Positions 36,969-39,740 of a stretch of DNA of 64,000 nucleotides are shown here, one piece after another. The translations under genes were made by a program, and so were the position numbers. The stretch comes from an uncultured Lachnospiraceae bacterium (lineage in GTDB: Bacteria > Bacillota > Clostridia > Lachnospirales > Lachnospiraceae). Under the pieces are notes generated by a model. That model made no database searches and was not told where the DNA came from. It was given only the letters and a program-made list of their open reading frames with translations. Numbering within the stretch: the first letter of the stretch is position 1; every line of letters starts with the position of its first letter. Location of the stretch: assembly GCA_902779355.1 (NCBI GenBank), contig CACZBF010000003.1:62001-126000 (forward strand), written 5' to 3'.

Positions 36969-37040
36969 GTGCAATATTTGCACATTTCTGTTGACGCAGA
37001 AGTGCAAATGTTGCATAATTTTTATTGGATGGAGGTGCAA
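36969..37040 (+). promoter_or_regulatory. Promoter and three 33-bp-spaced GTGCAA operator sites of the second MNT gene
   Basis: Promoter: TTGACG (36991-36996), 17 bp, CATAAT (37014-37019). Operators: GTGCAA-TAT-TTGCAC (36969-36983, perfect), GTGCAA-ATG-TTGCAT (37002-37016, one mismatch, overlapping the -10) and half-site GTGCAA at 37035-37040 by the ribosome site. The starts are exactly 33 bp apart, three helical turns, which suits cooperative binding by the XRE domain of the encoded protein. Confidence 0.7.
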
Positions 37041-37043
37041 AAC

Positions 37044-37517
37044 GTGACGGAACTGAAAGCCTGCCGGCAAAAGAAAAAACTTACTCAGCGTGAAGCGGCT
37101 CAAATATTGGGGGTGTCTTTACGATCTTACATCACATACGAAAATGATGAAGGGAAGAAAACTACGCCGAAATATCGGTTTATATTACAGGAGATGAAAA
37201 ATTTTAATCCGCTGGATGAGGAACATGGTGTCTTGGCGATTGACGAGATCAGAAGTGCATGTGAAAGAGTTTTTGAACAATACACGGTTGACTTTTGTTA
37301 TCTCTTTGGCTCCTATGCAAAGGGAAGAGCACGTGGGGAAAGCGATGTGGATCTGGTTATCTCAACACAGGTTACCGAACTTCGATTCTATGAAATCGCG
37401 GAACGTTTGAGAGAAGAGCTGCATAAAAAAGTTGATCTTCTCGAATTGAAACAACTGCTGAAAAATGAAGAACTCCTTAAAGAGGTATTAAAGGAGGGAA
37501 TCCGAATCTATGGATAA
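37044..37517 (+). CDS. XRE-MNT nucleotidyltransferase (antitoxin of a second MNT/HEPN module)
   Basis: 157 aa from GTG 37044, behind GGAGG at 37031-37035; upstream in-frame starts precede the promoter or lack a site. N-terminal XRE domain (LTQREAAQILGVSLRSYITYEND) and C-terminal MNT domain with CYLFGSYAKGRARGESDVDLVIS (G-S-x(n)-S-D-x-D). The acidic pair needed for AMPylation is present. The gene overlaps the remains of a HepT-type HEPN gene by 8 bp. Regulated by the GTGCAA operator array in its promoter, most simply by itself. Confidence 0.87.
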   Translation: MTELKACRQKKKLTQREAAQILGVSLRSYITYENDEGKKTTPKYRFILQEMKNFNPLDEEHGVLAIDEIRSACERVFEQYTVDFCYLFGSYAKGRARGESDVDLVISTQVTELRFYEIAERLREELHKKVDLLELKQLLKNEELLKEVLKEGIRIYG

Positions 37518-37670
37518 TATAAAAAACGACCAGTATTATGCTTGTAAACTTCGGGATGATCTGGCTTTTATTGTGACGCATATGAAAGGGATCGACCTTG
37601 AAGAATTGTTTATAGCACATTACAAGATGATGTTCCAGAACTCCTTAGCATGATCGAAAAAATGGTGTGA
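37510..37670 (+). pseudogene. HepT-type HEPN toxin gene with internal deletion
   Basis: ATG 37510 reads MDNIKNDQYYACKLRDDLAF and on to GIDLEEL, the normal N-terminus of a HepT toxin, then runs out of frame to a stop at 37651. In a shifted frame the typical C-terminus follows: YSTLQDDVPELLSMIEKMV and stop at 37668-37670. About 65-70 residues between, with the R-x(4-6)-H RNase motif, are gone. Both ends survive, so the loss is a single internal deletion of recent date. Confidence 0.7.
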
Positions 37671-37693: not shown

Positions 37694-38476
37694 ATGAGAC
37701 AGTTCGAGCCGGGTGACATTGTGCAGCATTTCAAACGTGAGATGCTCTCGGAAGAAGAAAAGAAAACAGACAGGTATCTGTATCGGATCATGGATATAGC
37801 GGTACATACGGAGTCCAGAGAGAAACTGATGATCTATCAGGCGCTTTATGACGACTGTAAGGTCTACGCAAGACCATATGAAATGTTCATGGGGGAGGTA
37901 GATCACGGGAAATATCCTGAAGTTGCGCAGACGTATCGCTTTGAAAGGATATCAGCAGAGGAATCGAGAGGAGATAAGATCGAATCCCTGACGCTTTCAC
38001 AGCCCGACTACCGCCTTATGACAATCGATGACTACGAGGCAGCATATGATCTCTGGATCAAATGTGGAAACGGGTTGAATGATAAAGATGATTCACGCGA
38101 AGGGATCGAGAAATATCTGAAACGAAATCCGAACACCTCTTATGTTGCCGTGCGTGAGGAAAAGATCGTCGGCGTGATCCTTTGCGGACACGACGGAAGG
38201 AGAGGGATCGTTCAGCATGCCTGTGTATCGCCGGATTACAGACGGATGGGGATCGGAAAGAAACTCGTCGACCTTGCCGTTGATGCACTGAAAAAAGAGG
38301 GAATCAATAAGGTCCTTCTGGTTGCGTTCAAAAAGAACGAAGGCGGAAATGCTTTTTGGGAATCGCAGGGTTTTACTTTGCGTGAGGATTTGAACTACAG
38401 AAACAAAGCCCTTGTCGAAATGGTGCGTATCGATCCTGACTACTTGGCAGAAGAAACCGAGATTGAAAAAGTGTAA
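37694..38476 (+). CDS. DUF1653-GNAT fusion protein
   Basis: 260 aa from ATG 37694. Residues 1-~80 match DUF1653 (GDIVQHFKREML, YLYRIMDIAVHTESREKLMIYQALY, VYARPYEMFMGEVD). Residues ~100-250 are a GNAT domain with VSPDYRRMGIGKKLVDLAVDALKKEG and FWESQGFTLREDLNYRNK. DUF1653 proteins are normally free-standing; a small-molecule-sensing or substrate-binding role in this fusion is inference. The last codons include the first of three ATTGAAAAAGTG repeats. Confidence 0.85.
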   Translation: MRQFEPGDIVQHFKREMLSEEEKKTDRYLYRIMDIAVHTESREKLMIYQALYDDCKVYARPYEMFMGEVDHGKYPEVAQTYRFERISAEESRGDKIESLTLSQPDYRLMTIDDYEAAYDLWIKCGNGLNDKDDSREGIEKYLKRNPNTSYVAVREEKIVGVILCGHDGRRGIVQHACVSPDYRRMGIGKKLVDLAVDALKKEGINKVLLVAFKKNEGGNAFWESQGFTLREDLNYRNKALVEMVRIDPDYLAEETEIEKV

Positions 38477-38538
38477 AAATATGAGAAAATAATCATTGAA
38501 AAAGTGCGAAATCTAATCAAAAATCAATTGAAAAAGTG
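38462..38538 (+). repeat. Three direct repeats of ATTGAAAAAGTG, 32-33 bp apart
   Basis: Copies at 38462-38473 (inside the end of the DUF1653-GNAT gene), 38495-38506 and 38527-38538. Identical 12-mers at spacing 33 and 32 with unlike AT-rich sequence between. They lead directly into the truncated DUF4143 ATPase gene. Not long enough for CRISPR repeats. Confidence 0.65.
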
Positions 38539-38561
38539 CAAGAGACCTCTATATTCCGGTT

Positions 38562-39740
38562 ATGGCGGAGTCGGCAACAGTAGAGGATCTGATCACAAAT
38601 ATGACTGCAGTCTCATCCCACAAAATGGTAAAAGGCGAAACGATACTCTTTATTGATGAGGTACAGGAATGTAAGGATATCGTGACAAAAATAAAATTCT
38701 GGGTTGAAGATAAGCGCTTTCAATATGTATTAAGCGGATCGTTACTTGGAGTGGAACTTCGCAATTTAAGGTCAGCACCGGTGGGATATGTTACAGAAAT
38801 AAAAATGTACCCGCTGGATTTCGAGGAATTTCTGTTGGCATCAGGAGTTTTGGAGGAGACGATAGGTTATCTCAAAAAATGTTATGATGAGAGCACTCCC
38901 GTGGATGAAACGGTCAATGATACCATATTTAAGCACATGAAAAGATATCTCGTCGTTGGTGGTATGCCTCAGGCAGTAAACGAATATGTTGAATCCGGAG
39001 ACATTGGAGCTGTGACGGAGATACATCAGAGCATTATTGAGTTCTATAAGCGCGATTTTACAAAGTATGAAAGCGAAAATAAAAAACTCATGCTCGTGGC
39101 GGTATACGGCCAGATCCCTTCACAACTCCTGAAACAAAATAAGAGATTCAATTACAGTGATATTAAGAAAAAGTTGAGATTTGAGAGAATTGAGGACAGT
39201 TTCCTTTGGCTCACATATGCCGGAGTGTCGATACCGGTGTACAATACAACGGAACCGAGGGTATCCCTCAATCAAAATGCAAAGAGGAGTTTGCTGAAAC
39301 TTTATTCATCAGATGTGGGATTGCTGACTTGCCAATATGGCAATGCCTTGAGAGCGCGGATACTCATGTCGGATGATAATGTCAATCTGGGAGGAGTATA
39401 TGAGAATTTTATTGCACAGGAATTAAACGCACATCAATTTGATTTGTACTTCTATAACAGCCATAGACTTGGAGAACTGGATTTTGTGATAGAGAGAGAT
39501 CTGTCCATAATCCCAATCGAGGTGAAGAGTGGTAAGGATTATTATGTGCACTCCGCCATAACGAAAGCAACAGATAATCCGGAGTATGAGATCAAAGAAT
39601 CGATTGTATTTGCCAACTGCAATATACACTTTGAAGGGAAAATCAAGTATCTTCCGGCATATATGGTGATGTTCTTATCTGATGACATTTCTGCTCCGAT
39701 TTTGAAGAAGCTTCCAGTTCAGATAAGAAGCGAAGAGTGA
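38562..39740 (+). pseudogene. DUF4143/AAA ATPase lacking its P-loop (5'-truncated)
   Basis: 392 aa from ATG 38562; in-frame stop TGA at 38529-38531 prevents extension. Walker B is present (ETILFIDEVQE), as are the sensor-like VLSGSLLGVEL, the YPLDFEEFLLA motif and the C-terminal DUF4143 nuclease-like half (LGGVYENFIAQELNAH, GELDFVIERDLSIIPIEVKSGK with E-V-K). The ~60-75 N-terminal residues that hold Walker A (GxRxxGKT) are missing, so ATP binding should be lost. AT-rich, probably acquired. Either a pseudogene or a protein that uses only its nuclease-like domain. Confidence 0.7.

Follow-up and report, generated by a model that had tools for sequence, protein, structure and literature searches.

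Known systems and the present locus

The type VII toxin–antitoxin systems of the HepT/MntA kind are known, for example, from Shewanella oneidensis (SO_3166/SO_3165), where the antitoxin has been shown to oligo-AMPylate a tyrosine of HepT and the GSX10DXD motif of the antitoxin is needed for this AMPylation (PMC7641770). Orphan antitoxins are abundant in Klebsiella pneumoniae, and the explanations listed for them include degrading toxin–antitoxin pairs and anti-addiction (PMC7192599). XRE and MNT domains also occur together in one autoregulated module in Streptococcus suis, Xress-MNTss; there they are separate proteins and the MNT protein is called the toxin (PMC8406773).

The locus described here lies in a window of 64,000 nucleotides (contig CACZBF010000003.1, positions 62,001 to 126,000) from an uncultured Lachnospiraceae bacterium, and all coordinates refer to this whole stretch. 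It shares with the S. oneidensis system an MNT antitoxin carrying GSX10DXD and adjoining genes, and the toxin of its intact relatives is likewise HepT-like (PF01934) with RX4HXY (PMC7641770). It differs from that system in the N-terminal XRE helix-turn-helix of the antitoxin, in its two-operator promoter and in a toxin killed by deletion. In contrast to S. suis, the XRE and MNT domains are fused and paired with HepT. As among the K. pneumoniae orphans, an antitoxin has been kept without a functional toxin, but those belong to a set of other toxin–antitoxin families, whereas here the breakpoints, the direction and the recency of the losses could be traced in one family across genera. The locus is probably a HepT/MntA (type VII) module in recent one-way decay, with an XRE domain fused to the MNT adenylyltransferase.

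The antitoxin gene and its promoter

The antitoxin gene (37044..37517, forward strand) has a GTG start preceded by GGAGG and encodes 157 amino acids. An XRE-type helix-turn-helix (PF01381) occupies residues 4-38, and a minimal nucleotidyltransferase domain (PF01909/PF18765) the C-terminal part from about 69 to 156; in the profile search both NTP_transf_2 and Polbeta exceeded the cut-off. The protein contains GSYAKGRARGESDVD (GS-YAKGRARGES-DVD), that is, the GSX10DXD motif by which the MNT antitoxins of type VII HepT/MntA systems are recognised. Its score against the MntA family model NF047752 (NCBIfam) is 59.8 bits, just under the cut-off of 60, and its nearest solved relatives by sequence are MntA structures (5yep and others).

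Two dyads, 33 bp apart, are situated upstream of the gene. Operator 1, GTGCAATATTTGCAC (36969..36983), fits the family motif RTGCAAnnnTTGCAY perfectly. Operator 2, GTGCAAATGTTGCAT (37002..37016), falls within the -35/-10 spacer and overlaps the start of the -10 element of a sigma-70-type promoter, TTGACG-17-CATAAT (36991..37019, forward strand), which is a consensus match only, at 10 of 12 positions. The same two-operator layout, with a spacing of about 30-33 bp, recurs 5' of the antitoxins of most relatives. The promoter, the operators and the antitoxin itself are all intact at this locus, in agreement with the preliminary description, and so is the Shine-Dalgarno sequence. Judged by its sequence, the antitoxin remains a complete enzyme, and it probably continues to repress its promoter via the two operators; by analogy with MntA, it may oligo-AMPylate the HepT tyrosine.

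The operator motif differs by clade upstream of the antitoxins, in L068 and L069 (GTGCCAnnnTGGCAC) and in L061, L062 and L067 (ACGCAAnnnTTGCGT), with the two-site spacing kept. A motif changing clade by clade at constant spacing suggests co-evolution of repressor and operator.

The HepT remnant and its deletion

The toxin gene persists as two pieces on the forward strand. Codons 1-33 of hepT, MDNIKNDQYYACKLRDDLAFIVTHMKGIDLEEL (37510..37608), are in frame, with an ATG that still lies within the 3' end of the antitoxin gene and AAGGAGGG upstream of it. Codon 92 to the stop, VYSTLQDDVPELLSMIEKMV (37608..37670), is out of frame with the N-terminal piece. The junction lies at 37608..37609, where codons 34-91 are gone by comparison with the HepTs of L021 and L022, which align gap-free over the stretch concerned. 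The loss comprises 58 residues, that is, 174 nt plus one shared G, or about 175 nt; hence the two pieces stand in different frames. Microhomology at the junction is at least 1 nt (the shared G), leaving at least that much ambiguity in the breakpoint; had the lost Ile91 been encoded by ATT, the ambiguity could extend to 4 nt (ATTG). An 11-bp repeat, AGAACTCCTTA (37469 and 37637), was considered as a cause of the deletion and rejected, as it does not sit at the breakpoint.

With the intact L021 HepT as query, tblastn matched both remnant pieces, at residues 1-46 (3e-11) and 91-107 (0.001). The RNase/AMPylation motif RX4HXY (R77-x4-H82-x-Y84 in L021 numbering) falls inside the lost part, so that no HEPN RNase carrying this motif is encoded at the locus. 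What can be translated from the ATG is a 47-aa ORF (37510..37653, forward strand) of HepT residues 1-33 and 14 frameshifted residues, without the RNase motif. The earlier claim holds in its core: a single internal, frameshifting deletion took the RNase motif out of hepT and left the XRE-MNT antitoxin in front of it intact. The size stated there, 65-70 residues, was too large, the loss being 58. No other HepT was found in the genome: there was no PF01934 match, and the L021 query returned only this remnant, so that a HepT acting in trans from elsewhere in the genome was rejected. The antitoxin, intact and with no functional partner toxin anywhere in the genome, is an orphan.

Intact relatives show what has been lost. 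The L021 and L022 antitoxins are 65 and 64% identical to the present one, and an intact HepT stands at the corresponding place in both (113 and 110 aa; PF01934 at 77-78 bits), with RX4HXY in the form RNRIVHDY. HepTs carrying RX4HXY, mostly as RNRIVHDY, adjoin the antitoxin in 19 sampled loci. The closest relative is L033 (sequence identical to that of L020), at 74% identity; HepT has been lost there too, at a different point. In the three other species of the genus that were searched, no counterpart of the antitoxin was full-length, the best partial match standing at 1e-13, nor was a locus found that has the two flanking genes and could serve as an empty site or an undeleted allele. The plasmid search gave no match.

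Several features of the neighbouring genes were recorded as well. One ORF (37694-38476) joins DUF1653 and GNAT acetyltransferase domains, the halves of which match separate places in same-genus genomes. Three direct copies of ATTGAAAAAGTG, spaced 32-33 bp, follow at 38462-38543, and the DUF1653-GNAT stop codon falls within the first of them. The AAA_14/DUF4143 ATPase ORF at 38562-39740 begins its AAA_14 match only at profile position 60 of 129; on this ground it appears to lack the N-terminal (Walker A) part and to be a second truncated gene near the HepT remnant.

Toxin loss across the family

Genomes sampled from the family (397), the order (392) and the class (391) were searched for the antitoxin, in all about 1,180 genome searches in which some genomes belong to more than one set. 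The tally is 43 distinct loci, including L004, which was found twice and counted once; L049 runs off the end of its contig and was left out, so 42 were assessable. HepT is intact and paired in 19 of the 42, and in another 19 the antitoxin is intact with HepT broken or absent. Both genes are damaged in the remaining four: L041, L062 and L071 have an in-frame stop in the antitoxin, and L050 has lost the antitoxin N-terminus and the operators. An intact toxin beside a damaged antitoxin was seen in none of the 42. Damage to the toxin first thus outnumbers damage to the antitoxin first by 19 to 0 (p = 6e-8, binomial weighted by gene length). In the reverse control, a HepT search of the 397 family genomes, 11 close full-length HepT genes were found, one of them with a TAG stop (L044), and all 11 genomes also have the antitoxin.

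The lesions vary widely in kind. An internal deletion combined with a frameshift is found at the present locus and in L068, and in-frame internal deletion with the HepT ends kept in L056 and L070. The 3' part of hepT is lost, for example, in L033, L038, L040, L048, L052, L057, L061 and L066, and the 5' part in L003 and L059. Other examples include frameshifts (L035, L041), a nonsense codon (L044) and near-complete loss (L055, L058, L060). No breakpoint was found to be shared by any two of the sampled loci, and these differing breakpoints imply recurrent, independent losses; on the antitoxin tree the losses are dispersed among paired relatives. The present locus had been called a clean example of toxin loss with the antitoxin kept. 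That state is real, but it is not an isolated one: it recurs in 19 of the 42 loci, and similar but differently placed lesions occur in 22 other sampled genomes. Isolated HepT fragments lying apart from the antitoxin locus of their genome were also noticed (G183:C1:55471-55602 and G256:C14:213-299), and these could possibly be the final stage of module decay.

Age of the losses and constraint on the orphans

The losses were dated by setting the identity of each remnant to intact HepTs, over hand-set segments, against the value for intact HepTs at equal antitoxin distance. Against L021, the present remnant has 78% identity, the expected value being 60%, with a mean z of 0.91, slightly over the intact toxins' own range, despite its out-of-frame C-terminal part. 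Conservation that equals or exceeds that of intact HepTs points to a deletion that is recent in comparison with how far these loci have diverged. The other remnants are mostly undecayed too, and L041, L052 and (by mean) L068 appear older. The codon model gave omega values of 0.055 for internal branches, 0.043 for paired tips and 0.033 for orphan tips, with dS saturated on most tips; within that limit, no relaxed constraint was seen in the orphan antitoxins. Recent losses would account for this, since decay would not show yet. Moreover, the ratio of antitoxin-only to paired loci, 19:19 (1.0), is near the 0.72:1 that, by our own arithmetic, would be expected under length-proportional neutral inactivation at steady state. 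Given a recent loss and a nearly neutral share of antitoxin-only loci, selective retention is neither demonstrated nor needed.

Explanations for the retained antitoxin

The events at this locus begin with a recent loss of about 175 bp from within hepT, perhaps at a short microhomology. This loss took out the RNase centre together with the tyrosine that MntA-type antitoxins AMPylate and threw the remainder out of frame. Deprived of its toxin, the antitoxin would no longer be essential and would merely not have decayed so far. Across the family, the toxin has been lost often, independently and in one direction only, as the survey bears out, presumably because loss of the antitoxin first would be lethal. 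Overall, this looks like a selfish gene pair decaying in the ordinary way. Two observations sit less easily with simple decay: the unrelaxed omega of the orphans (0.033 against 0.043 for paired tips, dS being saturated on most tips) is predicted by selective keeping as well, and the L052 and L068 remnants look older, yet their antitoxins are still intact.

Selective keeping could mean protection, one of the two uses put forward in the preliminary description, with the orphan XRE-MNT retained for AMPylating HepT toxins that arrive on phages or other mobile elements. Intact pairs of the family do occur on three distinct phage or viral contigs, namely L103, the near-identical L104-L106 beside a terminase-like gene, and L051, an unannotated 'Bacteriophage sp.' record; most orphans keep their catalytic and DNA-binding motifs, and constraint on them is unrelaxed. 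Such anti-addiction is nevertheless unlikely, as keeping the antitoxin after so recent a toxin loss requires no selection, the antitoxin-only share matches neutral step-wise decay, and damaged antitoxins are already present in 4 of the 23 loci with a broken toxin and in none of the 19 paired ones, a difference that is not significant (p = 0.11, Fisher). A little more doubtful still is its broader form, in which orphan XRE-MNT adenylyltransferases are a widespread standing immunity in the bacterial class, HepT being repeatedly discarded and the antitoxin kept against HepT modules of phages and mobile elements. In L104-L106 the intact pair lies immediately 3' of the terminase-like gene, which places a toxin–antitoxin module in the phage packaging/head region (gene identities assigned by eye).

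The remaining explanations carry far less weight. An assembly or consensus error, with an intact hepT in the true genome, might be suspected of a draft in 44 contigs; it is very unlikely, for such errors do not typically remove 175 bp from the interior of a 233-kb contig, the genome is 99.95% complete, and relatives have many analogous losses. It is less probable again that the antitoxin now serves to regulate the transcription of other genes, the second use suggested in the preliminary description. The XRE domain and the operators are indeed intact, but in the 2.97-Mb genome a search for sites with at most one mismatch returned just the two at the antitoxin's promoter, and those with up to two mismatches number 12 against 11 in the control; the restriction of both operators to that promoter speaks against control of other genes. 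Hardly credible is a role for the 47-aa product (residues 1-33 and tail) as a new functional small protein, such as a non-toxic ligand of the antitoxin that tunes autoregulation. Its ORF does follow a strong Shine-Dalgarno sequence, and L056 and L070 have in-frame internal deletions that keep the HepT ends, but the relatives show every sort of truncation and share no common product, and the good preservation of the out-of-frame C-terminal part as well argues for a recent loss and not for selection acting on the 47-mer.

Significance

By itself, the locus is an ordinary broken toxin gene. With its relatives, it becomes one of a series of traceable, independent toxin losses in a single HepT/MNT family, in all of which the toxin went first and the antitoxin later. 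The family is a ready set for asking whether orphan antitoxins are leftovers or anti-addiction genes, and the toxin-first direction provides comparative evidence for HepT as the harmful partner in these bacteria.
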